Shown here one piece after another: positions 48,408-63,898 of a stretch of 64,000 nucleotides of DNA. The translations under genes were made by a program, and so were the position numbers. Numbering within the stretch: the first letter of the stretch is position 1; each line of letters begins with the position of its first letter. The DNA comes from Bordetella sp. BOR01 (GTDB lineage Bacteria; Pseudomonadota; Gammaproteobacteria; Burkholderiales; Burkholderiaceae_B). The notes under the pieces are model-generated. The model worked only from the letters and a program-made list of their open reading frames with translations, ran no database searches and was not told where the DNA came from. The stretch is taken from assembly GCF_019218885.1 (NCBI RefSeq), contig NZ_JAHUWT010000002.1, forward strand, positions 186,001-250,000. The letters are read 5' to 3'.

Positions 48408-49940
48408 TTGGCCGAATCCGAAAACCGCCGCGCCGCCGGCATGCCCAGCAAGGATGTGTCCACGCCCGGCGGTTTGCGGCGCACCCTGGCCGCCCGCCAC
48501 TTGACCATGATCGCCGTGGGCGGCTCTATCGGCACCGGCTTGTTCGTGGCATCCGGCAATACCATCGCGCAAGCCGGCCCTGGCGGGGCCTTGCTGGGTT
48601 ATGCCCTGATCGGCCTGATGGTCTATTTCCTGATGACCAGCCTGGGCGAACTGGCTGCCGCCATGCCGGTGGCCGGCTCTTTCTCGACCTATGGCTCGCG
48701 CTATGTGGAACCGGGCTTCGGTTTCGCCCTGGGCTGGAACTACTGGTACAACTGGGCCGTGACCGTGGCTGTGGACCTGGTGGCGGCGCAACTGGTGATG
48801 GCCTACTGGTTTCCCGATGTGCCGGGCGTGTACTGGAGCGCGCTGTTCCTGGCCATTACCTTTGGCCTGAACGCCTTGTCGGCGCGCGGGTTCGGCGAGG
48901 CGGAATTCTGGTTTGCCCTGATCAAGGTGATCGCGGTGGTGGTCTTCATCGCCTTGGGCGTGCTGATGTTGCTGGGCATTATCCGCGGCGGCGAAACCGG
49001 CGGCTGGCAAAACTGGACACTGGGTGAGGCCCCCTTTGCCGGCGGCTTCGCGGCGATGATCGGCGTTGCCATGGTGGTGGGCTTTTCTTTCCAGGGCACC
49101 GAGCTCATCGGCATTGCCGCGGGCGAATCCAAGGATCCGGCGCGCAATATCCCGCGCGCGGTGCGGCAGGTGTTCTGGCGCATCCTGCTCTTCTACGTGC
49201 TGGCCATCGGCGTGATCGGCCTGCTGATCCCTTATACCGATCCGCAACTGCTGCGCAACGACGTCACCGACATCAGCGTCAGCCCCTTTGCGCTGATCTT
49301 CGACCGGGCCGGCCTGCTGGCGGCCGCGTCCGTGATGAACGCCGTGGTGCTGACTTCAGTACTGTCGGCGGGCAATTCCGGTATGTACGCCGCCACGCGC
49401 ATGCTTTACGCCCTGGCGTGCGAAGGCAAGGCGCCGGCCGTGTTCGGCCGGGTGTCGGCCAGCGGCGTGCCGGTACTGGCGCTGCTGGCCACCACGGCGC
49501 TGGCCGCGCTGTGCTTCCTGTCGTTCGTGTTCAGCCCCAACCAGGTCTATATCTGGCTGTTGAATACCTCGGGCATGACGGGCTTCATCGCCTGGCTGGG
49601 AATCGCCATCAGCCACTACCGCTTCCGTCGCGGCTACCTGGCGCAGGGCGGCAAGCTGGTCGAGCTGCCTTATGTATCGCCGTTCTTTCCCTTCGGGCCG
49701 ATCTTCGCCTTCGTGCTTTGCCTGGTCATCACGCTGGGCCAGAACTACCAGGCCTTCTTGCAAGACCGCATCGACTGGGTGGGCGCCGGGGCAACCTATG
49801 TCGGCATTCCCTTGTTTTTGCTGATCTGGGCCGGTTATCGCCTGGCGCGGGGTTCGCGTTTCGTGCGCTACCCGGACATGACGTTTCCGTTTCGCAGCGA
49901 CCAACCCGCCCGCCCATCCAGGCTTAGTCCCACGTCATGA
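48408..49940 (+). CDS. APC-family amino acid permease, LysP-like
   Basis: The start is a TTG at 48408 preceded by AAAGGAAA at the right distance; the next Met (48441) has no ribosome-binding site. The 510-residue product has twelve hydrophobic segments and the amino acid permease signature (HLTMIAVGGSIGTGLFVASG, FSTYGSRYVEPGFGFALGWNYWYNW in part, GTELIGIAAGESKDPARNIP). This places it with E. coli LysP and related AAT permeases. Cationic amino acid uptake is likely. Its 3' end overlaps the convergent ABC gene by 73 bp. Confidence 0.92.
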   Translation: MAESENRRAAGMPSKDVSTPGGLRRTLAARHLTMIAVGGSIGTGLFVASGNTIAQAGPGGALLGYALIGLMVYFLMTSLGELAAAMPVAGSFSTYGSRYVEPGFGFALGWNYWYNWAVTVAVDLVAAQLVMAYWFPDVPGVYWSALFLAITFGLNALSARGFGEAEFWFALIKVIAVVVFIALGVLMLLGIIRGGETGGWQNWTLGEAPFAGGFAAMIGVAMVVGFSFQGTELIGIAAGESKDPARNIPRAVRQVFWRILLFYVLAIGVIGLLIPYTDPQLLRNDVTDISVSPFALIFDRAGLLAAASVMNAVVLTSVLSAGNSGMYAATRMLYALACEGKAPAVFGRVSASGVPVLALLATTALAALCFLSFVFSPNQVYIWLLNTSGMTGFIAWLGIAISHYRFRRGYLAQGGKLVELPYVSPFFPFGPIFAFVLCLVITLGQNYQAFLQDRIDWVGAGATYVGIPLFLLIWAGYRLARGSRFVRYPDMTFPFRSDQPARPSRLSPTS

Positions 49941-51676
49941 AACGCATCCAGGGTACTGCGATGCCCCACGCTGACCACCATGCATTCCGGTAACTGGGTA
50001 CGCAGCAAGCCATACAACGCATGCTCCAGCCCTTCGTCGGTAGCCGAGGTGGCTTCGTCCATGAACACGATGGCTGGCCGGTTGAACAGCACGCGCGCAA
50101 ACGCCAGGCGCTGCTGTTCGCCCAATGACAAGATGCGCGCCCAGTCGCCCGGCTGGTCCAGCGCGCCCGCCAGGTGCGCCAGTTGCGTCTGTTGCAGCAC
50201 TTCTTTCAAGCGTGCATCGTCGGCCGGCGTGGCGCTGGCAGGGTAGGCGATGGCGGTGCGCAAGTCGCCCAATGGCAGGTAGGGCCGCTGCGACAGGAAC
50301 AATGCCTGCGCACCCACCGGGCGCCGCACCAGCCCCTGCGCATAGGGCCACAAGCCGGCCAGGCCGCGCAGCAGCGTGGTCTTGCCGCTGCCGGACGGGC
50401 CCTTGATCAGCAAGGCTTGCCCGGGCGCCAGTTGCAGGTGTAGGTCGTGCAGCAATACTTGGCCGTCGGGCCGCTGCACGTTCATGCCCTGGATCTGCAG
50501 TCCATCGGCCAGTGTGTCGATATCGACGCCGGGCAGCTTGCGCGCCTGCCGGTTGGCTTGCTGGAACCCGTCCAGCCGCGTCAGGGTGGCGCGGTACTGG
50601 GCGAAGGTGTCGTACGAAGTGCGAAAGAACGACAGCGAATCCTGTACCTGGCCGAAGGCCTGCGAGGTTTGCATTACATCGCCCAGCTTGATGGCGCCGC
50701 TGAAAAAGCGCGGCGCCTGCAGCATGAAGGGAAACACTACCGCCAGCTGGCTGACGGCCAGGTTCAGGCCATCGAACTTCAAGGTGCGGCGTATCAGGGC
50801 CCACAAGTTGGCGATGTAGGCGGCAAAGCGCGCGGCCAGGGTCTGCCGTTCGACTTGCGCGCCCTGGTAGAAGGCGATGTTCTCGGCGTTTTCGCGCAGG
50901 CGCACCAGTGCATAGCGGAAGTTGGCCGTCAGTTGTTCGCTGAGGAAATTCAGGCGGATCAGCGGCCGCCCCACCTTGAAGGCCAGCAGCGTGGCCAGGA
51001 TCACGTACAGGTACACCAGCAGCACCATGGCGCGCGGCACTTCCAGGCTGCCCAGTTGCAGCGGGCCCGACAGGGTCCACAAGATTGCGGTGAATTCCAC
51101 CAGCGACACGACGGCGCTGACCGCGCCCAGCGCCAGCGTGCGCGAGCCGGTCACGAAGGCCGCGATGTCCAGTTCGATGCGCTGGTCGGGGTTGTCGATG
51201 GGCGCGTCCAGGAACTGGCCGCGGTAATACGCGTTGCCCGCCAGCCAATCTTGCGTCAGGTGCGCGTTCAGCCAGGTGCGCCAGTCGATCTCGAAGGCCT
51301 GGCCCACGTAATAGTCGACCAGGGCGCGCGCCACGTGCACCGTGGCCAAGATGCCGAACACGCCCAGCATGGCCCAGAAGGCGCTTTTGTTCAGCGCCTG
51401 CAGCGCGTTGTAGAAGCCGTTGTACCAGTACGAGAACAGTACTGTCATTCGCACCGCCGCCAGCGTCAGCAGCAGCTGCAGCGCCAGGCTGGCCAACGGG
51501 CGCCAGCTGCGGCGTGGCGTCAGGTAGGGCCAGGCCAGGCGCCAGAACTGGCGCCCCCAGGCCGTGCCGCGCGCCAGTGCCCAGGCCAGGGCCGCCGAGG
51601 CGGCACCCGCGATGGCAAAACTGGCCAGCAGCCATAGCAGGCTGCTGCCGAGTTGCTGATGCCAGTCCAGGTCCAT
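49868..51676 (-). CDS. ABC transporter, fused permease/ATPase (SbmA/BacA-YddA-like)
   Basis: The 602-residue product has an N-terminal membrane domain of the ABC_membrane_2 type (QFWRLAWPYLTPRRSW, about six helices; ALNKSAFWAMLGVFGILATVHV) and a C-terminal nucleotide-binding domain. The latter has Walker A GPSGSGKTT, the signature LSLGEQQRLAFARVLFNRP and Walker B IVFMDEATSATDE. Relatives are YddA and the Rv1819c vitamin B12/peptide transporter. It probably works as a homodimer. It is co-directional with the LysR gene 66 bp upstream. Confidence 0.92.
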   Translation of the reverse strand: MDLDWHQQLGSSLLWLLASFAIAGAASAALAWALARGTAWGRQFWRLAWPYLTPRRSWRPLASLALQLLLTLAAVRMTVLFSYWYNGFYNALQALNKSAFWAMLGVFGILATVHVARALVDYYVGQAFEIDWRTWLNAHLTQDWLAGNAYYRGQFLDAPIDNPDQRIELDIAAFVTGSRTLALGAVSAVVSLVEFTAILWTLSGPLQLGSLEVPRAMVLLVYLYVILATLLAFKVGRPLIRLNFLSEQLTANFRYALVRLRENAENIAFYQGAQVERQTLAARFAAYIANLWALIRRTLKFDGLNLAVSQLAVVFPFMLQAPRFFSGAIKLGDVMQTSQAFGQVQDSLSFFRTSYDTFAQYRATLTRLDGFQQANRQARKLPGVDIDTLADGLQIQGMNVQRPDGQVLLHDLHLQLAPGQALLIKGPSGSGKTTLLRGLAGLWPYAQGLVRRPVGAQALFLSQRPYLPLGDLRTAIAYPASATPADDARLKEVLQQTQLAHLAGALDQPGDWARILSLGEQQRLAFARVLFNRPAIVFMDEATSATDEGLEHALYGLLRTQLPECMVVSVGHRSTLDAFHDVGLSLDGRAGWSLRNGNVMSG

Positions 51677-51742: not shown

Positions 51743-52651
51743 CTATTGCTCGTGCGCGGCCAGCACGGCGCGCCAGAATGCCTCGGCCGCCGGGGCTAGC
51801 GCGGCATCGGGGCGGAACAGGCGGATATCGGCGGCCAGGCGCCATGATGCGTCGCCCGCTTGCACCAGGCGCTTCTGGTGCAGTTCGGTTTCGACCATGC
51901 TGAGCGGCAGCCAGGCCACGCCGCGTCCGTCCAGCGCCATGCTCTTCAGCACGGCGGCCAGGTGGGCCGTGAAGACGGGCTCGACCCGGGCCTGCTGCAA
52001 GGCCGGTCCCAGCAGGGCGCGCACCAGGCGGCCCAGGCCGGATTCGGCGCTGTAGGCCAGCATGGGCACGGCTTTGCGCGCGTTGGCCGACAAGGCCTGG
52101 CGCGGCCGCCCGGCGCGGTCGGGCGCGCACACCGGCACCAGCGTATCGGTGCCGATTTTCAGCGAACGGTAAGCGGGCGCATCCAGGCGGCCGGGTGCCT
52201 GCGCATGGGTGTGGCACAGCAGGAACTGCACCCGGCCCTGCTGCATCCAGGCCTCGCATTGTTGCAGCATGTCGGACACCAGCTGTATCGGCCCGATGGT
52301 CGTGCGCGATTCCAGGCCGCGCAGCCATTGCGGCAGGAAGGTCAGCGACAGGGCGTGGGTGGCGGCAAAGCGCAGCGTGGCCGAGCCGGCGGCGGCCACG
52401 GCGCGCGCTTCGTCGGGCACGCGTGCCACGCGGCCCAGGATTTCCTGCGCCGTCGTGCGAAACCAGTCGCCGGTTTCCGTCAGGGAAACCGGGTGCGTGC
52501 TGCGGTCGAACAGCGCTACGCCCAGCCACTCTTCCAGGGCGCGAATGCGGCGGCTGAACGCCGGCTGCGTCATGTGGCGCTCTTGCGCGGCGCGCGAGAA
52601 ATTGCCGCTGGCGGCCAGCGCCAGGAAGTCTTCCAGCCAGGACAGGTTCAT
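51743..52651 (-). CDS. LysR-family transcriptional regulator
   Basis: The 302-residue product has the HTH segment LSWLEDFLALAASGNFSRAAQ, QPAFSRRIRALEEWLG and a HypT/YjiE-like arrangement (TQPAFSRRI, DRSTHPVSLTETG). The effector domain follows. It is divergent from the D-tartrate dehydratase gene (130 bp between starts) and may regulate it. It may alternatively control the downstream ABC exporter on its own strand. Confidence 0.92.
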   Translation of the reverse strand: MNLSWLEDFLALAASGNFSRAAQERHMTQPAFSRRIRALEEWLGVALFDRSTHPVSLTETGDWFRTTAQEILGRVARVPDEARAVAAAGSATLRFAATHALSLTFLPQWLRGLESRTTIGPIQLVSDMLQQCEAWMQQGRVQFLLCHTHAQAPGRLDAPAYRSLKIGTDTLVPVCAPDRAGRPRQALSANARKAVPMLAYSAESGLGRLVRALLGPALQQARVEPVFTAHLAAVLKSMALDGRGVAWLPLSMVETELHQKRLVQAGDASWRLAADIRLFRPDAALAPAAEAFWRAVLAAHEQ

Positions 52652-52781
52652 GGGCGATGCCTACAAAGCATGAAAGCAGAGAAAAACGGCATTGGGCAAG
52701 CCCGCCGCACGGCCCCGATAATACGCTGCATCATCCGCCGGCACGCCGGCGCCGCCCCTGTCATTGCCGGAGCCATCGCTC

Positions 52782-53948
52782 ATGAAAATCGTCGACATCC
52801 GCGAATCGACCCGCCCCATCAAATCCAATATCCGCAACGCGTACATCGATTTTTCCAAGATGACGCTCAGCCTGGTCGCGGTGGTGACCGATGTGGTGCG
52901 CGACGGCAAGCCCGTGGTGGGCTACGGCTTCAATTCAAACGGCCGCTACGGCCAGGGCGGCCTAATCCGCGACCGCTTCGCCCCGCGTATCCTGGAGGCC
53001 GACCCGGCCAGCCTGCGCGACGACGCACGCGACAATCTCGATGCGCACAAGATCTGGGCCGCCATGATGACCAACGAGAAACCCGGCGGCCACGGCGAAC
53101 GCTCGGTGGCCGTGGGCACCATCGACATGGCGGTGTGGGATGCGGTGGCCAAGATCGAAGGCAAGCCGCTGTACCAGCTGCTGGCCGAGCGCTACGGCGA
53201 TGGCCGTGCCAACCGCGACGTCTTCGTCTATGCGGCGGGTGGCTACTACTGGCCGGGCCAGGGGCTGGACGGCCTGCGGCGCGAAATGCAAAGCTACCTG
53301 GACCGCGGGTATTCGGTGGTGAAAAAGAAAATCGGCGGCGCGTCGCTGGCGGAAGACTGCGAGCGCATCGAAGCGGTGCTGAAGCTGCTGGGCCCGGGCC
53401 AGCGCCTGGCGGTCGACGCCAATGGCCGGTTCGACCTGAAGACCGCGGTCGAATACGCCAAGGCGCTGTCGCAGTACGACCTGTTCTGGTACGAAGAGGC
53501 GGGCGATCCGCTGGATTACGCCTTGCAGGCCGAGTTGGCCAAGCACTACGTCAAGCCGATGGCCACCGGCGAGAACCTGTTCTCGATGCAGGACGCCCGC
53601 AACCTGATCCGCTACGGCGGCATGCGCCCCGACCGCGATTGGCTGCAATTCGATTGCGCGCTCAGTTACGGCCTGGTGGAATACCTGCGCACGCTGGACA
53701 TGCTGAAGGAAAATGGCTGGTCGGCCACGCGCTGCATTCCGCACGGAGGCCACCAGATGTCCCTGGCCATCGCGGCCGGCCTGGGCCTGGGGGGAAATGA
53801 ATCGTACCCGGATTTGTTCCAGCCTTATGGTGGGTTTCCGGATGGCGTGCAGGTGCGCGACAGCATTGTCACCTTGCCCGAACTGCCGGGCATCGGGTTC
53901 GAGGGGAAAGCAGACTTGTATGCCGAGATGAAAGCCTTGGCGAGTTGA
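52782..53948 (+). CDS. tarD: D(-)-tartrate dehydratase, enolase superfamily
   Basis: The 388-residue product closely follows the characterised Bradyrhizobium D-tartrate dehydratase as I remember it. It opens IVDIRESTRPI with RNAYIDFSKMT and has YGFNSNGRYGQGG and MMTNEKPGGHGERSVAVGT. The catalytic Lys is in VVKKKIGG (Lys183), metal ligands are in VDANGRFD (Asp212), WYEEAGDP and ATGEN, and the catalytic His is in IPHGGHQ (His321). It dehydrates D-tartrate to oxaloacetate. It is monocistronic, with a LysR gene divergent, and no transporter is adjacent. Confidence 0.95.
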   Translation: MKIVDIRESTRPIKSNIRNAYIDFSKMTLSLVAVVTDVVRDGKPVVGYGFNSNGRYGQGGLIRDRFAPRILEADPASLRDDARDNLDAHKIWAAMMTNEKPGGHGERSVAVGTIDMAVWDAVAKIEGKPLYQLLAERYGDGRANRDVFVYAAGGYYWPGQGLDGLRREMQSYLDRGYSVVKKKIGGASLAEDCERIEAVLKLLGPGQRLAVDANGRFDLKTAVEYAKALSQYDLFWYEEAGDPLDYALQAELAKHYVKPMATGENLFSMQDARNLIRYGGMRPDRDWLQFDCALSYGLVEYLRTLDMLKENGWSATRCIPHGGHQMSLAIAAGLGLGGNESYPDLFQPYGGFPDGVQVRDSIVTLPELPGIGFEGKADLYAEMKALAS

Positions 53949-54047: not shown

Positions 54048-54827
54048 TCAGCGCATCACCAGCCCGCCGTCCACGAACAACACCTGGCCGGTCATGAAGC
54101 CGCTCCAGTCGGACGCCAGGAACATCACCGGCCCGGCGACGTCCTCGGGCCTGGCGATGCGCCGCAATGGCGTGGCGGCAATCAGCGATTCGCGGAACGA
54201 TTCCTGGGTTGCGCCGCTGGCCTGGGTCGGATAGACCAGGCCCGGCGCCACGCAATTCACGCGGATGCCAAAGGGGCCGAGTTCAGCCGCAAGATTGCGG
54301 CTGAATGCCACCAGCGCGGCCTTGGCGGTGGTGTAGTCGTGGTACGGCACGACCGGGTGCTCGACCAGGTTGCTGGCAATGTTCACGATGCAGCCCTGGG
54401 CGCGCCGCTGGAAGTGCGGTAGCGCGGCGCGGCACACATTGAAGGCGGCGCCGACCGCGCCATCGAACTGGGCCTGGTAGTCTTGCCAATTCAGGTGGTC
54501 GAATGCGGTGCGCCGCCTGGGATCGAATGCATAGTGCCGTAACGCGTTGTTGACCGCGACGTCGAGCCGGCCGGTCTCTTGCACGATGGCGTCGATCATG
54601 GCGCGCACGGCCTCTGGCGAGCCGACATCCGCCTGCACGGCCCAGGCGTCGCCGCCCAGGGCCTGGCATTGCGCCACCACGGCATCGGCCGCCGTGGCAT
54701 TGCTCAGGTAATTGACGACGACCGTCGCGCCTTCCCGCGCGAAACTGCGCGCGATCTCGGCGCCTATGCCACGGCTAGCGCCTGTGACCAGTACTACCTT
54801 GCCTGTGAATTGCATGGTTGCGCTCAT
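54048..54827 (-). CDS. SDR-family oxidoreductase, last gene of the TPP-riboswitch operon
   Basis: The 259-residue product starts at the ATG at 54827, one base after the stop of the binding-protein gene, so it is coupled. It has the cofactor motif TGASRGIG, VNNALRH in place of NNAG, a catalytic Ser in NIASNL and YTTAK (Tyr-x3-Lys). Classical SDRs reduce aldehydes or ketones. Given the LuxE/LuxC-type acid-to-aldehyde enzymes upstream, reduction of the resulting aldehyde to an alcohol is the simplest role, which is inference. Confidence 0.9.
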   Translation of the reverse strand: MSATMQFTGKVVLVTGASRGIGAEIARSFAREGATVVVNYLSNATAADAVVAQCQALGGDAWAVQADVGSPEAVRAMIDAIVQETGRLDVAVNNALRHYAFDPRRRTAFDHLNWQDYQAQFDGAVGAAFNVCRAALPHFQRRAQGCIVNIASNLVEHPVVPYHDYTTAKAALVAFSRNLAAELGPFGIRVNCVAPGLVYPTQASGATQESFRESLIAATPLRRIARPEDVAGPVMFLASDWSGFMTGQVLFVDGGLVMR

Positions 54828-54828
54828 A

Positions 54829-55869
54829 TCAGGACGCCGGCAGCAGGCTGGCATCGGCCACGCTGGCCACATCGATGGGGTGCTGGATCAGGCCCAGCGC
54901 GCGATAGGCGTCGGCCGCCTGCTGCAGCAGCGCCAGGTCGAACGCGCCCAGCGCGCGCGCGGCACCGCCGGGGCCGGCCGGCGCCTGGGCGGCGATGTTG
55001 CGCAGCCGGATCACCTCCAGATTGATGTCCCGGTCGGTGCCGTCGATCGCGCGTTTGGCGGCAAGCGTTGCCGCTTCTTCCGGCTGGGCGATCATCCAGG
55101 CGGCGCTGTCGCGGTAGGCCTTGAGAAACGCGCGCAGCAGCGGCTGCCTTTGCTGGTAGACCTGTTCGCGCACCACGAACAGGTCGCTGGAGACGTTGAG
55201 GTAGTCGCGCACCTGCATCACATTGACCTTGCCCAGCCCCCGGCGCCTGCCCACCAGCAGGCCGGTGTCGGTAGCCGCGGTGGCGTCGACGTGGCCCTGC
55301 AGCAGGGGCGCGAAGTTCAGGACGCCGGTCACCACGATTTCCACATCCGCTTCGGTCAGCCCGGCCTGATGCAGCATCACCAGCAGGTTCTGGCGCGTGC
55401 CGCTGGACAAGCTGTAGACGCCGATGCGCTTGCCCTTCAGGTCCGCCGGCCGCGCGATGTTGGCGGACTGGAGCGACACTACGTTGAAGACGTTCTGCGG
55501 ATAAATGTCATAGATGGCGCGTAGCTTTTCGCCCTTGTCCAGCGCCATGAACAGAGAACCCGGATCGGTAAAGGCCACGTCGGCCTGGCCGCTCAGGATG
55601 TTGCGGATGGCGTCGCCGCCGCCCGCGCCAGGCAAGTAGACCAGTTCCAGGCCCTGCGCCTTGAAAAAGCCCTTGTCGGGCTCGGCCAGCAGGTTGGTGA
55701 TTTCGGCGATGGGCTTGCTCCAGCCGGCCAGGGTGACCTTGCCGGAGGCCGCCGCCTGGGCGCGCGCCGCGGAAGGGCCGATCGATAGCGCGGCAAGGCT
55801 GGCGGCAGCGGTCAGCAGCGCACGGCGGCGGGAAGACGGAACCATGGGGCGAATCCTGGTGAATGTCAT
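54829..55869 (-). CDS. ABC transporter substrate-binding protein, NMT1/ThiY-SsuA-like
   Basis: The 346-residue product starts at the ATG at 55869, overlapping the permease stop as ATGA. It has a signal sequence with a basic RRR-ALL start and a cleavage site near ARAQA. The fold markers of the NitT/TauT/NMT1 group follow: VTLAGWSKPIAEITNLLAEPDKGFF in parts, GQADVAFTDPGSLFMAL, and ADLKGKRIGVYSLSSGTR. Members bind taurine, nitrate or thiamine pyrimidine precursors. The TPP riboswitch upstream argues for a thiamine-related ligand. Confidence 0.9.
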   Translation of the reverse strand: MTFTRIRPMVPSSRRRALLTAAASLAALSIGPSAARAQAAASGKVTLAGWSKPIAEITNLLAEPDKGFFKAQGLELVYLPGAGGGDAIRNILSGQADVAFTDPGSLFMALDKGEKLRAIYDIYPQNVFNVVSLQSANIARPADLKGKRIGVYSLSSGTRQNLLVMLHQAGLTEADVEIVVTGVLNFAPLLQGHVDATAATDTGLLVGRRRGLGKVNVMQVRDYLNVSSDLFVVREQVYQQRQPLLRAFLKAYRDSAAWMIAQPEEAATLAAKRAIDGTDRDINLEVIRLRNIAAQAPAGPGGAARALGAFDLALLQQAADAYRALGLIQHPIDVASVADASLLPAS

Positions 55870-56630
55870 GAATGGTCAGTGTAGGGACGCAGCAGGCGCC
55901 GCTCTACCATAAGCATGGCTTGATAGCACAGCAGCCCGATGGCGGCGATGGCGGCCAGCGCCGCAAACATGAGCGGCGTGTCCATCATGCCCTGAGAGGC
56001 GATGATGACCGCGCCCAGCCCGCGGCTGGCGCCGATGAATTCGCCCACGACAGCGCCGACCAGGGCCAGCACCAGCGCCACGCGCAGCCCCGCCAGAATA
56101 CCTGGCAGGCCCGCGGGCAGCTTCAGGCGCAGCAACGTCTGGCCACGCGATGCACCCAGCATGCGGAATAGTTGCAGCCGGTTCGGGTCGACCTGCCGCA
56201 GGCTGGTCAAGGTGTTTTCCATCAAGGGGAAAAAGCAGATCAGCGCGGTCATCACCACGGTGGGCGCCATGCCGAATCCGAACCACAGCACGAACAGCGG
56301 CGCGAGGGCCAGCTTGGGGACCACCTGGCTGACGATGACGTAGGGCTTGAGCACGCGGTCGAGCAGGGCGGATTCGGCCAGCGCCACGCCCATGGCCAGG
56401 CCCGCGATGCCGCCCAGCGCCAGGCCCAGCAGCATCTCGGCCAGGGTCGTGCCGATATGGGGCCAGAGATAACCGGTGGACAGGCTGGTCCACAGCGTCA
56501 GGGCCACGGCCGAGGGCGCCGGCAGCACCAGCGCGGAAATACCGGCCTGCCGCACGGTCAGTTCCCACATCCCTACCAGGATCACCAGCAGCACGCCGGC
56601 CAGGACGCGGGTGTTCAGCGTCGGTTTCAT
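55866..56630 (-). CDS. ABC transporter permease, NitT/TauT/ThiX-like
   Basis: The 254-residue product has about six membrane segments and the EAA-like cytoplasmic loop (LGASRGQTLLRLKLPAGLPGILAGLRV shortened: LGASRGQTLLRLKLP). It overlaps the ATPase gene upstream and the binding-protein gene downstream by ATGA junctions, so the three form one importer. The type matches ThiX, SsuC and TauC. Confidence 0.92.
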   Translation of the reverse strand: MKPTLNTRVLAGVLLVILVGMWELTVRQAGISALVLPAPSAVALTLWTSLSTGYLWPHIGTTLAEMLLGLALGGIAGLAMGVALAESALLDRVLKPYVIVSQVVPKLALAPLFVLWFGFGMAPTVVMTALICFFPLMENTLTSLRQVDPNRLQLFRMLGASRGQTLLRLKLPAGLPGILAGLRVALVLALVGAVVGEFIGASRGLGAVIIASQGMMDTPLMFAALAAIAAIGLLCYQAMLMVERRLLRPYTDHS

Positions 56631-57391
56631 GCGCGAGCCTCTGTCATGGTTTCGAATATCCGGGAGCAGTATTGGTTGAAGGCCGCGCCGTGGCGCATGG
56701 CCTGGCTGCGGGGCGCGCCCAGGTCCACCGGGATGTCGGCCAGCAGGCGCCCCTGGTGCATGACCCCGACGCGGTCGCCCAGGTACACCGCTTCGCCGAT
56801 GTCATGCGTGACGAACAGCACGGTGGTCTTGCGCACACGGCACATCCGCAACAGGTCGTCCTGCAGCTCGCCGCGCGTGATGGCATCCAGCGCGGCGAAG
56901 GGTTCGTCCAGCAACAACAGCGCCGGCTCGAGAATCAGGGCGCGTGCCAGCGCCACCCGGCTTTGCTGCCCGCCGGACAACTGCCGGGGATAGTGCCGGG
57001 CATGGTCGGACAGCCCCAGCATGGCCAGCAAGGCCTGCGCGCGCTCGAGGTCGGCAGCCAGCGGCCGGCGCTGCAACGACACGGGCAGCAGCACGTTGTC
57101 GATGACCCGGCGCCATTCCAGCAGGGTGGGCGCCTGGAACACATAGCCCAGCTGCGGGCCGGGCGCGGCCGCCGTGCCATCCCACCGGCGGATATGCCCG
57201 GCCTGCGGTTGCAGCAGGCCCGCGGCCAGCTTCAGCAGTGTGGTCTTGCCGCAGCCGCTGCGCCCGACCAGGCAATGGAAACCGCCGGCCTGCAGTTGCC
57301 AGTCGATGCCGGCCACGACGGGCGGCCGGCCAGGGTAGGTGTAGGCCGCCTGCTGGATATCGAGAAAGGGGATGTCCGGCGCCGGGCTCAT
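56627..57391 (-). CDS. ABC transporter ATP-binding protein, NitT/TauT/ThiZ-like
   Basis: The 254-residue product starts at the ATG at 57391, overlapping the LuxC-like gene stop. It has Walker A GRSGCGKTT, the signature LSGGQQSRVALARAL, Walker B LLLLDEPFAALD and the switch His in FVTHDIGEAVYLGDRV. It is the usual single-domain ATPase of taurine/nitrate/HMP-type importers. Confidence 0.94.
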   Translation of the reverse strand: MSPAPDIPFLDIQQAAYTYPGRPPVVAGIDWQLQAGGFHCLVGRSGCGKTTLLKLAAGLLQPQAGHIRRWDGTAAAPGPQLGYVFQAPTLLEWRRVIDNVLLPVSLQRRPLAADLERAQALLAMLGLSDHARHYPRQLSGGQQSRVALARALILEPALLLLDEPFAALDAITRGELQDDLLRMCRVRKTTVLFVTHDIGEAVYLGDRVGVMHQGRLLADIPVDLGAPRSQAMRHGAAFNQYCSRIFETMTEARA

Positions 57392-58851
57392 GGTTCGTAG
57401 GGCGCAAAGGGCTCGGCCGCCGATTCGGCCGATTGTTCGATCTCGGTCATGCGGACCAAGTCGAGCAGGTTGAAGCGGCCATCGTGGTGCCAGCCGGCTT
57501 CGGGCACGCTCATCGAGCCGATGGCGCTGATGCGGGTGACGCCCGCAGCGCCCAACTGCTCGGCCAGGCGGTACAGCTCGCCTGGCGTGGCGGCGATGCC
57601 GGCCGATTGCAGGAAAACCCCGCCGCCGGCCACGGCGGGCGCCACTTCGTCCAGCGCGTCGACGCCGGCGACCACGATGCTGCGCTGTAGCGCCGTGGGG
57701 GCCAGGGCCTGGGGGCCGTCGGTGTAGGCCACGCTCCATGCCGCAGCGGGATCGCCGATCAAAGGGTCTTGGCCTTCGGCAGCCGGCTGCTTCCATTCGA
57801 CAGATTGCCGCCATTTCGCCAGCGCCGCCGATTCCTCCAGGTCCAGGGCGCGCCGCGGAAAGCGCCGCTGCAGGACGGCCAGTTCGCCCGCCAGGTAGCC
57901 GGCGAACTCGCGTGGCGCAACCTGGCCGCCGCGCTGCACATAGAAGACATGCGGCGAATAGCAGCCCTGCTGGTCATAGCGCACTACATCCCACGCGGCG
58001 CGCCGCGCCAGGGCGGGCGCCTTCAACGCGTCAAGCGCCATCGCGCTGACCACCCCGAAGCCGAGTTTGTGCCCATGCGCAAGAAAGCGCGTCGTCACGG
58101 GCAGGCGGCGCTGGATGGCTTGCAGCGAATCATTGCCGCCATAGGCCACCACGGTGTCGGCCTGGGCGTACAGCGCCTCGGCGTCCGCATCGCCGGCGCC
58201 GCGCCACCACACCACGGCCAGGCAATCGGCAAGCGGCGGATGCACTTCGGCCAGCAGGCGCGCGAACCAGCCGGCAAACAGCGGCTCGGCGCTGGGCAGC
58301 TTGCCGATGTTGCCGGCCTTGACCAGCAGGCCGCAGACCAGGCTCCACAGCGCCAGCGCGGGCACGTTGCCGGCCCAGCTGTGCACCAGCAGTTGCGGCC
58401 CATGGGCCCGCACCGCACCGCCCTTGGCCGTCGGCTGGAAACCGTCGAGCACCTTGGGATTGGCGAAATCCTCGGCCACGAAACGGTGCAGTTGCGGGGC
58501 GCGGAAGGTCTTGAAAAAACCGGTAAGCCCCAGGCGGACCATCTCGGCGTCATAGCCGCTGACCAGCGGCAGCAGCGCGTCGGCCTGGCGGCGGTACGGG
58601 TCGTCGCGGTCCAGCAGCCGGGCAATGGCGCGATCGATGACCGCGATGATCCCGGACACCGGCATGGTCTTCAGGTGCTGGGCGCTGGCGCGCCGGACCC
58701 GCTCGGCAAGCGCATCCATTTGCGGGGCCGACAGCACCGGCACCGCCACCTCGATCCGCTGGCTGCCCTGCGCGAACGGCAGTACCTGCCATTGGACGTC
58801 GGCTGCCGCCAGCCCCGGCAGGTAGCCCGCTTCGATTCTGGGCACGTTCAT
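57388..58851 (-). CDS. Acyl-CoA reductase, LuxC family
   Basis: The 487-residue product starts at the ATG at 58851, overlapping the LuxE-like stop. It belongs to the LuxC branch of aldehyde dehydrogenases. It has HSWAGNVPALALWSLV and VVAYGGNDSL for nucleotide binding, and the catalytic Cys297 in YDQQGCYSPHVFYV, equivalent to the acyl-Cys of LuxC. LuxC-type enzymes take an acyl thioester and reduce it with NADPH to the aldehyde. With the LuxE-like gene just upstream this forms a carboxylic acid reductase pair. No luxAB or luxD is present, so light emission is excluded. Confidence 0.92.
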   Translation of the reverse strand: MNVPRIEAGYLPGLAAADVQWQVLPFAQGSQRIEVAVPVLSAPQMDALAERVRRASAQHLKTMPVSGIIAVIDRAIARLLDRDDPYRRQADALLPLVSGYDAEMVRLGLTGFFKTFRAPQLHRFVAEDFANPKVLDGFQPTAKGGAVRAHGPQLLVHSWAGNVPALALWSLVCGLLVKAGNIGKLPSAEPLFAGWFARLLAEVHPPLADCLAVVWWRGAGDADAEALYAQADTVVAYGGNDSLQAIQRRLPVTTRFLAHGHKLGFGVVSAMALDALKAPALARRAAWDVVRYDQQGCYSPHVFYVQRGGQVAPREFAGYLAGELAVLQRRFPRRALDLEESAALAKWRQSVEWKQPAAEGQDPLIGDPAAAWSVAYTDGPQALAPTALQRSIVVAGVDALDEVAPAVAGGGVFLQSAGIAATPGELYRLAEQLGAAGVTRISAIGSMSVPEAGWHHDGRFNLLDLVRMTEIEQSAESAAEPFAPYEP

Positions 58852-59930
58852 GGCGTGGCGGTCCGGATGAATGCTTCGACCGCCAGCGAGCAGCCCTTGG
58901 CCTGGGCGCCCTCGGCACGCCCCAGCAGCAAGAAGCCGCGGTCGGCCGGCAGGCCCACGTCCTCGGTAAGGATGGTGCAGACCGAATTGAAGTTGGCCAG
59001 GTCGCAGTGCACCAGGATGCCGCGTTCGCCAGCCGGCACCGTGCAGCCCGTGGCAGGATCGACCAGGCGCGAACGTATCCAATGCGGCCCCGACTTGACC
59101 GAGGGCACGATGGCATTGCCATCGTCGTAGAACTGCGTGCTCAGTTCTGTCATGCCGTACATGTTGATGCACAGCTCGCGCGGCACGCCCAGCAATTCGG
59201 AAAGCGACGAATAAAAGGCCTCGAGCGGCAATTCGCGCGACTGCCCCTTGTAGCCGCCGGTATCGAGAATGCGGCTGCCCGGCGGCAGGCGGAACGACCG
59301 GCCTTCCTTGCGCAGCGCGTCGATGACATGCACGAAGCTATAGCTCGCGCCCAGCAGGGCATAGGGCTCGCCCAGTTGCTCGGCCTGTTCCAGCCGTTGC
59401 CACAAGCCCTGCAGGTCTATGCCCTGCGGGGACACGAAATAGCGGCTGTCGGGACTGCCGAAGGCGGATTTCGCCAGCGCCAGGTAATGCGCCAGCGACG
59501 AGTTGGGCATCGTGGCTTCGTCCGGGAACAGCAGGCCCATCGGCAGGCGCTCGACGCCTTGCATGACGCGTCGCGCGAAGTTGCGGGTCATGGACAGGTC
59601 GTAGACGTCGAGCCGCGGGTGGAAGTGGCGTCCGCGCGTGTCGGCGCGGGTGGTGCCGCTGGTCATGAACACGCGCTCGGTCGGCAAAGGCGGCTCGCAG
59701 CGCAGCTCCATCGCCTTGAAGGCGTCGATGGGCACGGCCGGGATGTCGCTCCATGTTTTCACGGTGCGCACCGTGGCGCCCCGGCGCTGGCAAAAGCTGC
59801 GGTAGGGCGCGTTGGCGCCATACTGGTAGGCGAACAGGCGCAGCGCGATCTGGTCGAATTGCGCGTCGGTGCAGCTGTCCTGGGCGATGAGTTCGAGAAT
59901 GTCCGCGACCGGCGGTTCGACGTGGTTCAT
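58848..59930 (-). CDS. Acyl-protein synthetase, LuxE family
   Basis: The 360-residue product is an adenylate-forming LuxE-domain protein. It has an AMP-binding loop VFMTSGTTRADTRG (near residues 87-100), the motif CINMYGMTELSTQFYDDG, and a Cys347 near the C-terminus (KGCSLAVEAF) in the place of the acyl-accepting Cys of LuxE. It would activate a carboxylate with ATP and pass it to the LuxC partner. It is the first gene after the TPP riboswitch, 83 bp from the aptamer's 3' side. Confidence 0.92.
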   Translation of the reverse strand: MNHVEPPVADILELIAQDSCTDAQFDQIALRLFAYQYGANAPYRSFCQRRGATVRTVKTWSDIPAVPIDAFKAMELRCEPPLPTERVFMTSGTTRADTRGRHFHPRLDVYDLSMTRNFARRVMQGVERLPMGLLFPDEATMPNSSLAHYLALAKSAFGSPDSRYFVSPQGIDLQGLWQRLEQAEQLGEPYALLGASYSFVHVIDALRKEGRSFRLPPGSRILDTGGYKGQSRELPLEAFYSSLSELLGVPRELCINMYGMTELSTQFYDDGNAIVPSVKSGPHWIRSRLVDPATGCTVPAGERGILVHCDLANFNSVCTILTEDVGLPADRGFLLLGRAEGAQAKGCSLAVEAFIRTATP

Positions 59931-60012
59931 GGGCTTTGGTGGATTCCTGTGCGTGGAAGCTCCGAAGCCCGCCTGTGCCAGCGGCGCGTGGATACGGCCC
60001 TGTCGAGGTCGA

Positions 60013-60087
60013 TGCTCTTCTTACGCCGGCATGAACCGGGTCAAGTTCGCGGGTCTGAATCTCAGCACTGGCGTGCACCCCGGAGCA
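60013..60087 (-). promoter_or_regulatory. TPP riboswitch (THI element)
   Basis: Read on the minus strand the sequence has all parts of the thiamine pyrophosphate aptamer. A closing P1 stem TGCTC/GAGCA lies at 60083-60087 and 60013-60017. The 5' block CCGGGGTGC is at 60075-60083, and CTGAGA is at 60060-60065. Then come ACCCGCGAAC, the conserved TTGACCCGGTTCATGCCGGCGTAAG block and the return strand (given in pieces: TTGACCCGGTTCATG, CCGGCGTAAG). In proteobacteria it usually blocks translation or transcription when TPP is abundant. It directs the six-gene LuxE-LuxC-ABC-SDR operon. Confidence 0.95.
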
Positions 60088-60166
60088 AGCACCATGTTAA
60101 CCCGCAATGGCGGGCTACCGGACGGCCCCGGCAGTGGCGCGGCCAGGCGCGGGCCGCGCATCCCTG

Positions 60167-60955
60167 TCAACGGGGCAGCACCAGCAATCGCCCCGGCAGG
60201 GTGGGGTGCGGCAGGACATCGGCTTCGATGTCATACACCGCGCGCAGGTTGGCCGGCGTCAGTACTGCATCGGGGGCGCCATCGGCCACCACCGTGCCGC
60301 CGCCCAGCATCACCAGCCGGTCGCACCAGCGCGCCGCCAGGTTGACGTCGTGCACGATCACCAGCACCCCCAGGCCCTGCTCGTGGGCCAGGCCGGCCGT
60401 GGTGCGCAGCAGTTCGATCTGGTGCTTCGGGTCCAGGCTGGAAATCGGTTCGTCCAGCAGCAAATAGCGCGGCACCTGCGCATCGCGCTGTGCCTGGCAC
60501 TGCGCCAGCACGCGGGCGAATTGCACGCGCTGCTGCTCGCCGCCCGACAGCTCGGGGTAGCGCCGCTGCGCCAGTTGCGGCACGCCGGCCAGGGCCAGGG
60601 CCGCGTCGACCAGTTCTTCCACTTCCACCGGGCCCAGCTCGGGAAATGGATAGGCGCCCATGGCCACCACTTCGTGCACGCCCAGGTCGAAACTGAGCGA
60701 GGGCTTTTGCGGCAGTACCGCGCGCTGTCGCGCCTGGCGGCGCAGCGGCAGGCCGCTCAGGGCGGTACCGTCCAGTTCGATGGCGCCGCTGTCGGCATGC
60801 AGTTCGCCCGCCAGCGCGGCCAGCAGCGTCGACTTGCCCGCGCCATTGGCGCCCAGCAAGCCCAGCACGTGGCCGGGTTCGATCGCCAGCGATACACCGG
60901 ACAAGATGCGCGCGCCGTTGCGCGACAGGGCAAGATCGAGGGTGCGCAGGCTCAT
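60167..60955 (-). CDS. bhuV: Heme ABC transporter ATP-binding protein
   Basis: The 262-residue product starts at the ATG at 60955, whose A... strand overlaps the permease stop (TGATG). It has Walker A GANGAGKST, the signature LSGGEQQRVQFARVLAQ, Walker B YLLLDEPISSLD and the switch His in VIVHDVNLAARWCDR. The type is HmuV/BhuV, the ATPase of hemin import. It is the last gene of bhuSTUV and is expected to be iron-regulated by Fur from a promoter outside the window. Confidence 0.95.
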   Translation of the reverse strand: MSLRTLDLALSRNGARILSGVSLAIEPGHVLGLLGANGAGKSTLLAALAGELHADSGAIELDGTALSGLPLRRQARQRAVLPQKPSLSFDLGVHEVVAMGAYPFPELGPVEVEELVDAALALAGVPQLAQRRYPELSGGEQQRVQFARVLAQCQAQRDAQVPRYLLLDEPISSLDPKHQIELLRTTAGLAHEQGLGVLVIVHDVNLAARWCDRLVMLGGGTVVADGAPDAVLTPANLRAVYDIEADVLPHPTLPGRLLVLPR

Positions 60956-61986
60956 CAGAATCGGCGCCCCCGCGCCAGCAGCCACAAGAAGAAGGGCCCG
61001 CCCACCAGGCTGGTGACCAGTCCGATGGGTAGTTCGGCCGGAATGACCACGATGCGCGCCAGCCAGTCGGCCAGGGTCAGCGCCAGCGCGCCGGCCAGCA
61101 TCGACGCCGGCAGCAGCCAGCGGTGATCTGCGCCCAGGGTCATGCGCACCAGGTGCGGCACCACCAGCCCCACGAAACCGATGCCGCCGGTGGCGGCCAC
61201 CAGCGGGCCCACGATCAGGGCGGTGGCCAGCACCAGCTTGTAGCGCACGGTGATCAGGGCGAAACCCAGGTGCTGTGCTTCGCGCTCGCCCAGCAACAGG
61301 GCGTTCATGGCGCGCCATTGGCGCATCAGCCAGGCCGACCACAGCAGCGTCCAGGGCGCCAGGAAGGCCAGCAACGGCCAGCTGGCGCCGGCCAGGCTGC
61401 CCATGCTCCAGAAAGTCAGGTCGCGCAATTGGGCATCCGAGGCCATGTAGGTCAGCAAGCCGATCAGGCTGCCTGCCACGGTATTGATGGCGATGCCGGC
61501 CAGCAGCAGGCCGGCCACGCCGGAAACGCGCCGGCCCACCGCATAGGCGGCGGCCGTGGCCAGCAGGCTGCCGGCAAAGGCCGCGGGCGCGGTCACGGCA
61601 AAGCCGCCGGTGGTCAGCACGATGGCCGATACCGCGCCCAGCGCGCCGCCGGCCGAGATGCCCACCAGGCCCGGCTCGGCCAACGGGTTGCGAAACAGCG
61701 CCTGCATGGCGGCGCCGGCAATGGCCAGCGCCGCGCCCGCCACGACGGCGAACAGCACGCGCGGCAGGCGGATGTCCAGCAGCACATTGCGCCACAACGT
61801 ATCGTCGGGCTGCGAGGCGCCGGTGGCCAGCACGCGCAGCGCATCGGCCAGCGGGATATGCACCGCGCCGCTCAGGGCGGCCAGCAATGCCACCAGCAGG
61901 GCGGCCGCGCCCAGCCCCGCCAATACGGCGGGCGGCGCGGCGCGCCTAGCTGGCCGCACGAGACGGCTGGCCCTGGCGAGCGACAC
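60955..61986 (-). CDS. bhuU: Heme ABC transporter permease, FecCD family
   Basis: The 343-residue product has about ten membrane helices and FecCD signatures: LPRVLFAVVAGAALAIAGAAMQALFRNPLAEP (key part AGAAMQALFRNPLAEP), GISAGGALGA, and GFVGLVVPHLVRM, which contacts the ATPase. It forms the inner-membrane channel for hemin. The start overlaps bhuT by 41 bp, showing tight coupling. Confidence 0.96.
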   Translation of the reverse strand: MSLARASRLVRPARRAAPPAVLAGLGAAALLVALLAALSGAVHIPLADALRVLATGASQPDDTLWRNVLLDIRLPRVLFAVVAGAALAIAGAAMQALFRNPLAEPGLVGISAGGALGAVSAIVLTTGGFAVTAPAAFAGSLLATAAAYAVGRRVSGVAGLLLAGIAINTVAGSLIGLLTYMASDAQLRDLTFWSMGSLAGASWPLLAFLAPWTLLWSAWLMRQWRAMNALLLGEREAQHLGFALITVRYKLVLATALIVGPLVAATGGIGFVGLVVPHLVRMTLGADHRWLLPASMLAGALALTLADWLARIVVIPAELPIGLVTSLVGGPFFLWLLARGRRF

Positions 61987-62824
61987 AGTCGGTCTCCTTC
62001 AACGCGCGGATGGCCTGCGGCAGCCGTGGCCCAGTGCCCAGCGCAAGCAGGTCGTCCATGACGACGATGCAATCGTTGGCGGCGGCCGGCGTGCTGGCCA
62101 CGCCCGGCATGGCCAGCAGCTTCTGCATGCCGCCGGCGGCTTCCAGCGACATGCGCGGTACCACGATCACCTGCGGCGCCAGCCCGCCCAGGGCCTCGGC
62201 CGACAAGGGCTTGTAGCCTTGCTGGTCGGCCAGCACATTGACCAGGCCCGATAGTTCCATCACCAGCGATGCCGCCGTGCCGCTACCCGCGCCCAGCGGC
62301 GTGCCGGTGCGGTTCATGATCAGCACCGCGCGGGCATGCGATTCGGGCAGGGCGCGCGCATCGCGCAGCGCGGCGTCCACGGACCCCGCCAATTGCTCGC
62401 CGCGTTCGGGCACGCCCAGCGCCTGCGCGATCTGCCGGATGCGATCATCCAGCGATTGCACCGTGGGCTGGTCGGACACGACCGCCACCGGCACGCCCAC
62501 TTCTTTCAGGCGGGCGATGGCGGTGGGCGGCCCGGCCTGGTCGGATGCCAGCACCAGGTCGGGCCTCAGGGCCAGTACGCCTTCGACCGGCACCGCCCGG
62601 TAATAGCCCACCCGCGGCAGCTTGGTGGCCGCCTCGGGATACAGGCTGGACAGGTCGTCGCCCACCAGGCGGTCGCCCTGGTCCAGCGCATAGACGATCT
62701 CGGTGACCGTGCCGCCCAGCGACACCACGCGCGCTGCCGGCGCGTCTTGCGCGGCCTGCGCCGACGCGGCCACGCAGGCGGCCGCCAAGACGGCCCCGAC
62801 AGTCCTCAACAGGCTTGCTGCCAT
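61946..62824 (-). CDS. bhuT: Hemin-binding periplasmic protein
   Basis: The 292-residue product has a signal peptide (MAASLLRTVGAVLAAACVAA, cut after AQA) and a class III periplasmic-binding fold with a long linking helix. The opening ARVVSLGGTVTEIVYALDQG and the segment LPRVGYYRAVPVEGVLALRPDLV (key part VGYYRAVPVEGVL, with the Tyr that binds heme in HmuT relatives) are typical. It delivers hemin from the outer-membrane receptor to BhuUV. Confidence 0.95.
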   Translation of the reverse strand: MAASLLRTVGAVLAAACVAASAQAAQDAPAARVVSLGGTVTEIVYALDQGDRLVGDDLSSLYPEAATKLPRVGYYRAVPVEGVLALRPDLVLASDQAGPPTAIARLKEVGVPVAVVSDQPTVQSLDDRIRQIAQALGVPERGEQLAGSVDAALRDARALPESHARAVLIMNRTGTPLGAGSGTAASLVMELSGLVNVLADQQGYKPLSAEALGGLAPQVIVVPRMSLEAAGGMQKLLAMPGVASTPAAANDCIVVMDDLLALGTGPRLPQAIRALKETDCVARQGQPSRAAS

Positions 62825-62845
62825 GATGCTCCTCGGTGGCGGCCG

Positions 62846-63898
62846 TCAGGCGGCCAGTGGTTGCGGGCACAGGCTGCCCAGCAGGCGCCGCCATTCGGCC
62901 AGCTCGGGTTTGCCGGGCTTGCGCTCGCCGAAGAACTGCACGATCAGGTCGCCGCTGGCCGCATACAGTTCCAGCGACGTCACCCAGCCATCGCTGGTGG
63001 GCTTGCTGACCACCCAGGCCGAGGCTATGGCCTGCGTGTTCAGGTGCAGGTTGAAGCGCGGGTCCAGCACATTGAACCACGGGCCCGTGCGGCGCAGATT
63101 GGCCACCGGCCCGGTGTGGATCTGGATCATGCCGCGGTTGCCCACGAAGCACATGATCGAAAGACCCGATTCGGCCGCGGCCTGCAGCATGCGTTCGGCC
63201 GTGTCGGCCTCGACGCGCTGCGCCAGGTCGATGCCGGCCGCGTCCAGGGCCGCCAGCCGCGACACCTTGAACTTGCGCAGCATGGGGAAGAATTCATGCG
63301 TGTCCTGCATGGCCAGCCAGGCCGTGCGCAGGGCCTGCTGGTCGTCGACGGTACCGGCCTCGTCGCCGGCCGGCCAGGGCTGGGGCTCGGGCCAGGCGGG
63401 TTCGCCCGCAAAGCGCGCCACCAGCGCATCGTAGGCTGCCGCGTCGGTCGCATCGGTGCGGTATACCTTGTGTGCCGCCACGCCGGCGCGGTCGAAGAAC
63501 TGCAGGCTGTGCCGGCCGTCGTGCTCGACGGCCCAGGCAGTATCCCAGCCGCTGAAGAACACGCGCAGGTCGATATCGGGGCCCAGCACCAGGCCCACCG
63601 GCCCTTCGGCCTGGATCGATTCATAGCGGCCATGCCGCTCGTGCACACACCATTCGTTGCGCGTCAGGGCCATCACTTCGCCCAGCGTGCCCAGTTCGCG
63701 AAAAATCGCCTGCGGCGATTCGGCGCCGGTCAGGGCGGTGGCGCGCACGCCGTTGCATTGCGCAGCCACCCATTGCGCTTCGGATACGCCCAGCGCCTGC
63801 GCCAGGTTGCGCGCGCGCTGGCCCGGCTGCGCCGCTGCCAGGGCGTCGTTGCGGGCGCGCAGCTCGGCGGCCAGTTCGGTATAAGAGGTATTGCTCAT
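62846..63898 (-). CDS. bhuS: Hemin-degrading/chaperone factor, HemS family
   Basis: The 350-residue product is a duplicated HemS/ChuX domain protein. The first half has ALTRNEWCVHERHGRYE, where His is the probable heme ligand, and the second half repeats it with SIMCFVGNRGMIQIHTGPV. The motif FNLHLNTQAIASAWVVSKPT is family-typical. It binds hemin in the cytoplasm and releases iron or hands heme on. It precedes bhuT by 21 bp. Confidence 0.95.
   Translation of the reverse strand: MSNTSYTELAAELRARNDALAAAQPGQRARNLAQALGVSEAQWVAAQCNGVRATALTGAESPQAIFRELGTLGEVMALTRNEWCVHERHGRYESIQAEGPVGLVLGPDIDLRVFFSGWDTAWAVEHDGRHSLQFFDRAGVAAHKVYRTDATDAAAYDALVARFAGEPAWPEPQPWPAGDEAGTVDDQQALRTAWLAMQDTHEFFPMLRKFKVSRLAALDAAGIDLAQRVEADTAERMLQAAAESGLSIMCFVGNRGMIQIHTGPVANLRRTGPWFNVLDPRFNLHLNTQAIASAWVVSKPTSDGWVTSLELYAASGDLIVQFFGERKPGKPELAEWRRLLGSLCPQPLAA

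Follow-up and report, generated by a model that had tools for sequence, protein, structure and literature searches.

Why should a thiamine pyrophosphate (TPP) riboswitch govern a LuxE-LuxC pair, enzymes best known for acyl reduction in luminous bacteria? The question is raised by an operon of Bordetella sp. BOR01, located on the minus strand of the 64,000-nt stretch of contig NZ_JAHUWT010000002.1 analysed here (hereafter the window). A TPP aptamer (THI element) precedes six genes encoding a LuxE-like ligase, a LuxC-like reductase, the three components of an ATP-binding cassette (ABC) importer and a short-chain dehydrogenase/reductase (SDR). A first-pass annotation had proposed that these proteins import an oxidised fragment of thiamine and reduce it from acid to aldehyde to alcohol. 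Our analysis supports that proposal and places it on the pyrimidine side of the pathway, on the evidence of operonic thiD, the pattern of thiC and thiG, a ThiY-like binding protein and an alternative permease of the NCS2 type. The operon thus probably serves, under repression by thiamine, to salvage the pyrimidine half of the vitamin in its oxidised form.

A TPP riboswitch heads a compact six-gene operon

The elements of the operon, in the order of transcription, are the following.

60001..60092, minus strand: TPP riboswitch aptamer (THI element); RF00059, 59.1 bits (gathering 54.3), model positions 1-105
58848..59930, minus strand: LuxE-like acyl-AMP ligase; PF04443, 60.1 bits (gathering 24.9)
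57388..58851, minus strand: LuxC-like acyl-thioester reductase; PF05893, 279.8 bits (gathering 21)
56627..57391, minus strand: ABC importer ATPase, nitrate/sulfonate type; PF00005 (ABC_tran), 106.1 bits
55866..56630, minus strand: ABC importer permease; PF00528 (BPD_transp_1), 105 bits
54829..55869, minus strand: substrate-binding protein, NMT1/THI5 family; PF09084, 171.7 bits (gathering 20.5)
54048..54827, minus strand: SDR oxidoreductase; PF13561 (adh_short_C2), 206.7 bits

The complete THI element that had been read from the sequence alone at 60013-60087 (minus strand) was recovered by the Rfam covariance model over its full length and above gathering, and it is the sole Rfam match at that threshold in the whole 64 kb. 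Aligned with 12 relatives, the window aptamer appeared as a short form missing an insert of the Pantoea and Azospirillum copies, which we take to be P3a. The Pfam families agree with the earlier reading of the six-gene run, whose coordinates proved correct to within a few bases. The tight junctions described there were found as well: neighbouring genes share 4 nt at every junction from luxE through the binding-protein gene, and a single nucleotide separates the last of these from the SDR gene, whose most likely start is at 54827. The SDR scores slightly above the NCBIfam PRK08642 cut-off (294.4 versus 292), while all NCBIfam matches of the ATPase, among its best 25, lie under their cut-offs.

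The genome carries a second TPP site, C22:33694-33799 (minus strand; locus L002), which scores 43.8 bits, below gathering, and flanks thiC on its upstream side (the ThiC domain is at C22:31833-33212, same strand).

The linkage of riboswitch and operon is conserved

An alignment of 12 LuxE proteins, used as the query against GTDB genomes, returned 404 relatives, the best 80 of which were analysed. The full order luxE-luxC-ATPase-permease-binding protein-SDR was present at 73 of these 80 loci; the other seven are on contigs that are short or sit close to a contig end. A home-made TPP model, built from 13 such elements and holding only 11 base pairs, detected an element upstream of luxE or of a thiD-luxE pair at 78 loci; RF00059 recovered the same site in all 11 of the genomes searched with it, nine at gathering and two below. 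A 79th locus, L101, carries a TPP element at 38.3 bits (RF00059, E 2e-4, below gathering), and the remaining one, L098, is cut by a contig end and begins inside thiD.

A similar picture emerged among 399 sampled Burkholderiales genomes, where LuxE matches occurred in 16, eight of them close (59-100% identity) and eight distant (24-27%). Besides the window, all seven close loci carry the riboswitch (four at gathering, three at 48.6-54.1 bits, below it), versus none of the eight distant loci within about 1.5 kb of flank each, or 0.4 kb upstream for L018. Further TPP elements lie upstream of the operon in Azospirillum, three Pantoea plasmids, Pseudomonas silvicola (genes located by tblastn), genomes G746 and G560, two Lactobacillaceae plasmids, Niallia, which has two of them, and Priestia, whose element scores 49 bits, below gathering. 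The Azospirillum and Priestia records hold the whole operon, the three Pantoea records hold luxE-luxC-SDR alone, and in Niallia and the Lactobacillaceae an NCS2-type permease replaces the ABC importer. Riboswitch, luxE, luxC and SDR are therefore the constant part, the SDR being kept also at loci without the ABC importer, and the importer is exchangeable. Because it is conserved across relatives, the linkage is more than chance, and the doubt whether it might be confined to this one genome is settled by its recurrence in many.

In a maximum-likelihood tree of 59 LuxE rows, rooted at the midpoint, with L018 excluded and with some branches long, the 51 rows from TPP-operon loci separate from the eight distant ones with a branch support of 98/99, and the rows closest to that of the window, itself part of an Alcaligenaceae genome, belong to Bordetella and Achromobacter. 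Rows from Bacillota and from alpha- and gammaproteobacteria branch within the betaproteobacterial ones, a pattern suggestive of horizontal spread.

Some individual loci deserve mention in their own right. Two different Lactobacillaceae carry small plasmids (L118 and L119) on which permease, luxE, luxC and SDR match at 100%, so that the pathway is probably plasmid-mobile between species. The Niallia megaplasmid carries two tandem TPP riboswitches (L117 6697-6993, plus strand; 85 and 72.9 bits) before thiW, the NCS2-type permease gene, luxE, luxC and SDR. On the Pseudomonas silvicola plasmid, the TPP-preceded luxE (L021 5869-6898, plus strand) matches only as overlapping pieces in different frames, and this copy may be broken or mis-sequenced. 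In genome G416 (L113 259-2607) a distant LuxE-like stretch (26% identity) is followed by a LuxC-like one, with no TPP element at gathering; the LuxE-like stretch lies inside an 829-aa open frame, and the whole is possibly a natural LuxE-LuxC fusion.

Catalytic residues of the predicted enzymes are retained

LuxE of the window aligns with chain E of the LuxC-LuxE fatty acid reductase 7xc6 at 6.8e-34, the KGCSL motif included. Among 15 aligned rows its SGT and GCS motifs are invariant and YGMTE is nearly so, and Cys347 is expected to be the acyl-accepting residue. LuxC aligns with chain A of the same structure at 1e-39, including the cysteine of the DQQAC stretch; this residue, Cys297, is invariant in 20 rows and would be the expected catalytic one. 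In an 18-row alignment of the SDR, Tyr165 and Lys169 are invariant and position 152 is occupied by Ser or Thr, which gives the Ser/Thr-Tyr-Lys set of the family.

The predicted structure of LuxE is nearest to PaaK-type ligases (Z 22.7), most of which act on aromatic acids, those of phenylacetate, salicylate and aminohydroxybenzoate being among them. The phenazine biosynthesis protein structures 3hgu, 3hgv and 3l2k, which we take to be EhpF, match it at Z of about 19, and 7xc6 is absent among its best 50 fold matches, an absence that is not evidence against kinship. Both proteins score far under the equivalogue cut-offs of true bioluminescence enzymes (LuxE, NF052244, 65.7 bits against 550; LuxC, NF052251, 81.9 bits against 750), and a Pfam scan of the six genes revealed no luxA, luxB or luxD. 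With luxD missing from this set, the expected substrate is a free acid and not an acyl carrier.

A phage or defence context was also considered and rejected, as LuxE had no match in the phage collection and neither luxE nor luxC belongs to a PADLOC family.

Gene context points to the pyrimidine branch

ThiD is the kinase of hydroxymethylpyrimidine (HMP) and of its phosphate, ThiC is the standard bacterial HMP-phosphate synthase and ThiG serves the thiazole branch. The gene thiD stands immediately before luxE at 18 of the 80 GTDB loci and also in genome G240, and its identity was confirmed in the two proteins tested (TIGR00097, 316 and 319 bits). A survey of thiC covered 45 of the 80 loci, namely all those with thiD and a spread of the rest, eight plasmid records being excluded. 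The gene was missing in 15 of the 45 genomes, and the losses are concentrated where thiD is operonic (13/18, versus 2/27 without it; Fisher p 9e-6). All but one of the 15 genomes lacking thiC keep thiG, the matches in G797 and G803 being contig-end fragments scored as present. By comparison, thiG was found in only 13 of 53 Burkholderiales that lack both thiC and the operon (Fisher p ~2e-6; the two samples were differently drawn). The latter count comes from 54 thiC-less Burkholderiales, 20 listed directly and 34 obtained by elimination from the match list, with ThiG matches better than 1e-50 in 14, one of them being G240.

G240 gives the clearest picture of the arrangement. No ThiC was found in this 98% complete genome, and the single TPP site found in it heads thiD-luxE-luxC-ABC-SDR-thiE-thiO-thiS-thiG on one strand; the matches of thiE and thiO fall short of the curated cut-offs, that of thiS exceeds its own, and thiG reaches 337.7 bits with PF05690. 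As judged from gene content, everything needed for thiamine phosphate is present save a source of HMP, and the genes left unexplained are the importer and a putative set for reducing an acid to an alcohol. The same contig bears a tandem glycine riboswitch (L115 13463-13672, minus strand). In Ramlibacter paludis the gene next after that of the SDR is thiE. When 12 of 16 operon genomes without thiC were scanned for TPP sites, 11 had only that of the operon plus, in seven, one near thiG. A scan for TenA (PF03070) covering 22 genomes gave no match in the genome of the window or in G240.

The importer may resemble aminopyrimidine carriers

The predicted structure of the binding protein (mean pLDDT 84.5) finds its best structural match in the formylaminopyrimidine-binding ThiY (3ix1; Z 32.4, with 293 residues superposed at 2.5 A), practically level with the thiamin binder 4nmy (Z 31.5) and followed by 3qsl (28.7), Thi5 (28.4), SsuA (27.7) and NrtA (23.2). 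We propose that it may bind HMP-carboxylate. The alternative importer of Niallia and Lactobacillus is, by the NF037981 model, an NCS2-type purine/pyrimidine permease. It is the combination of operonic thiD, loss of thiC with retention of thiG, the ThiY-like binding protein and this nucleobase-type permease that directs us to the pyrimidine branch.

A proposed route from HMP-carboxylate to HMP

We propose that at low cellular TPP the riboswitch would leave the operon on, thiamine acting to repress it, and that the ABC importer (binding protein, permease and ATPase) would take up HMP-carboxylate, that is, 4-amino-2-methylpyrimidine-5-carboxylate. LuxE would convert the acid with ATP into an acyl-adenylate and then an acyl-cysteine, LuxC would draw on a nicotinamide cofactor to turn the acyl group into an aldehyde, the 5-formyl pyrimidine, and reduction of this aldehyde by the SDR would give HMP, which ThiD, encoded in the same operon in some relatives, would phosphorylate for ThiE. 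As the LuxE step uses ATP, reduction of the acid should be the favoured direction. HMP-carboxylate is a known catabolite of thiamine, to judge by the title of a paper (Neal and Pearson 1964) that PMC7780320 cites.

We lean towards the broader view that LuxE, LuxC and SDR form a widespread, horizontally spread and thiamine-repressed means of regenerating HMP from an environmental carboxylate, one that would replace ThiC altogether in some bacteria (G240 and many Ramlibacter).

Weighing the evidence against salvage and its alternatives

Several observations weigh against the salvage of HMP-carboxylate, or narrow its reach. At the level of the RNA, folding of the leader in isolation failed to reproduce the aptamer, and the folding energy was ordinary (z 0.65). 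As to the substrate, ThiY and the thiamin binder 4nmy are tied within 1 Z for the binding-protein model, the aromatic-acid ligases share their place in the fold match of LuxE with an aliphatic one, for 2-hydroxyisobutyrate, and the NCS2-type permeases pass the NF037981 cut-off only, falling under those of pbuX and ncs2. The Pantoea trio has no importer within the operon, and the Niallia operon includes ThiW, which we take to be a predicted thiazole transporter.

The genomic association is likewise uneven. Since thiC is present in 30 of the 45 operon genomes, and in nine of ten of another set including that of the window, the route would be an accessory one in most of its hosts. Nor did the operon appear enriched among thiC-less Burkholderiales, where it occurs in one of 54 genomes versus seven of 345 that bear thiC (p = 1.0). 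The losses of thiC are clustered in Ramlibacter and kin, and eight of the 15 genomes concerned are metagenome bins (the other seven being named isolates), so that these losses are neither independent nor all secure. The 13 of 53 Burkholderiales that keep ThiG without thiC or operon, five of them in family f9, imply that another source of HMP exists within the Burkholderiales, and this may be another unrecognised route. Other means of acquiring pyrimidine are also suggested in some operon genomes: four of 16 without thiC have a strong TenA match, and G807 has a third TPP site, located before a CytX-like permease gene (225 bits, under the cut-off of 309.85).

Among the alternatives, it is unlikely that another aminopyrimidine acid is the natural substrate, be it a 2-substituted, bacimethrin-like compound or an HMP-acid ester or amide hydrolysed first, which would then yield HMP or an analogue. 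The evidence does single out the pyrimidine branch rather than the exact molecule, but HMP-carboxylate is the simplest acid that gives HMP by three reduction-only steps, and it is a documented catabolite of thiamine. Three candidate acids had been put forward at the outset, and the aminopyrimidine 5-carboxylate, then named first, is the one that our data favour, whereas the thiazole acid and thiamine acetic acid have become weak rivals. We hold it to be quite improbable that the imported compound is a thiazole acid, such as 4-methylthiazole-5-acetic acid, with the thiazole alcohol as the product of its reduction. ThiW of the Niallia operon, as a predicted thiazole transporter, would fit such a route, but the operonic kinase is ThiD, for HMP (thiM was not searched for). 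The acid itself is a known thiamine catabolite according to the title of Suzuoki 1968 in the reference list of PMC11681303. The parts of the importer, however, point to pyrimidines, and as thiG is kept in 14 of the 15 thiC-less operon genomes, these should make their own thiazole.

It seems very improbable that thiamine acetic acid, intact thiamine oxidised in its side chain, is reduced back to thiamine by these enzymes. The binding-protein model is nearly as near to the thiamin binder 4nmy as to ThiY, which would suit such a ligand, but a thiamine product needs a thiamine kinase or pyrophosphokinase, yet the linked genes are thiD and thiE, and a nucleobase-type permease would be an unlikely carrier of a thiazolium compound. 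We give hardly any credence to enzymes running oxidatively or acting on fatty acids, with the riboswitch answering to a different demand, for example for the synthesis of membranes or signals when thiamine is short. In favour of this are the names LuxE and LuxC and the public records, which label the proteins long-chain fatty acid ligase and acyl-CoA reductase, but both proteins score far under the respective equivalogue cut-offs, luxA, luxB and luxD are not among the six genes, the operon partners in relatives are thiD, thiE, thiO, thiS and thiG, and the ATP-using step favours reduction of an acid. On the equivalogue scores, the operon partners and the fold of LuxE, the fatty-acid and bioluminescence reading was rejected.

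Neighbouring genes in the window

Just upstream of the riboswitch, at 60167-63898 (minus strand), lie genes of the haem-uptake type (ABC_tran, FecCD permease, periplasmic binding protein and HemS), with no sign of a functional link. On the other side, an enolase-superfamily protein of the mandelate racemase/muconate lactonising type is encoded at 52764-53948 (plus strand), convergent with the SDR gene; its nearest models are talarate/galactarate dehydratases, far under their cut-offs. At 49868-51676 (minus strand) there is an ABC_membrane_2/SbmA-BacA-like transporter with an ATPase domain, adjoining a LysR regulator at 51743-52651.

Novelty and significance

The remark in the first-pass annotation that it knew of no described pathway with this gene set agrees with our search of the open literature, which turned up, among the matches listed, no description of a TPP riboswitch or THI element with LuxE, LuxC, an acyl-protein synthetase or an acyl-CoA reductase. 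The oxidoreductase OarX of Rodionov 2002, reported with THI elements, may presumably be the SDR of the operon, the literature under that name being unrelated among the matches listed. The main text of a survey of RNA-controlled regulons (PMC3766115) contains neither 'LuxE' nor 'acyl-CoA reductase'. The component families and TPP-controlled salvage of precursors are thus familiar; reduction of a carboxylate as a step in the salvage of vitamin B1 (thiamine) is, as far as we have found, new.

Exchange of HMP shapes communities, and HMP is the commonest B1 precursor requirement among marine microbes, according to the opening of the abstract of PMC11452348. If the proposed pathway holds, recovery of HMP from an oxidised and supposedly dead-end catabolite would be an added source in the HMP economy, and genomes scored as HMP auxotrophs for missing thiC may not be so. 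If the route also replaces ThiC in some bacteria, their thiamine operons would be complete except that this radical synthase has been swapped for acid import and a two-step reduction, and the pool of HMP-carboxylate in soil and water would be big enough to live on. The LuxE-LuxC pair would find a place in vitamin salvage, and genes that at present bear the labels of fatty acid ligases and acyl-CoA reductases would gain a function. As predictions go, this one is specific and inexpensive to check, as one small pyrimidine acid addresses the question of the substrate directly.

Comparison with known systems

The ThiXYZ importer together with TenA and YlmB salvages base-degraded thiamine, the formylaminopyrimidine being hydrolysed. 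The operon described here resembles that system in the predicted TPP-controlled ABC import of an aminopyrimidine through an NMT1/THI5-type binder and in HMP as the predicted end product. In place of hydrolysis, however, LuxE, LuxC and SDR would carry out the reduction of a carboxylate, and the genome of the window differs from ThiXYZ-TenA systems in that no TenA was found in it.

In luminous bacteria LuxE activates the acyl group using ATP and LuxC releases it reductively. Both proteins of the window share the conserved cysteines of that reductase (7xc6), but here luxD, luxA and luxB are not among the six genes, the scores are far below the cut-offs, the context is that of a vitamin rather than of light, and the LuxE model is nearest to PaaK-type ligases.

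Another analogy could come from phenazine clusters, where the EhpF-EhpG pair reduces a phenazine carboxylate. The gene table of PMC11278526 lists in such clusters an AMP-binding EhpF, an EhpG of the aldehyde dehydrogenase family and the SDR EhpK. The operon likewise unites an AMP-binding protein, an aldehyde-dehydrogenase-family protein and an SDR, and the Ehp trio would offer a precedent for such a set acting on an N-heteroaromatic acid. The phenazine clusters serve antibiotic synthesis and, to our knowledge, have no riboswitch or importer, whereas both are present here.

Finally, CytX, ThiW and other TPP-controlled transporters import ready-made HMP or thiazole. The operon has in common with them the TPP-controlled uptake of a putative thiamine precursor, but in this case import would be coupled to the reduction of a carboxylate.

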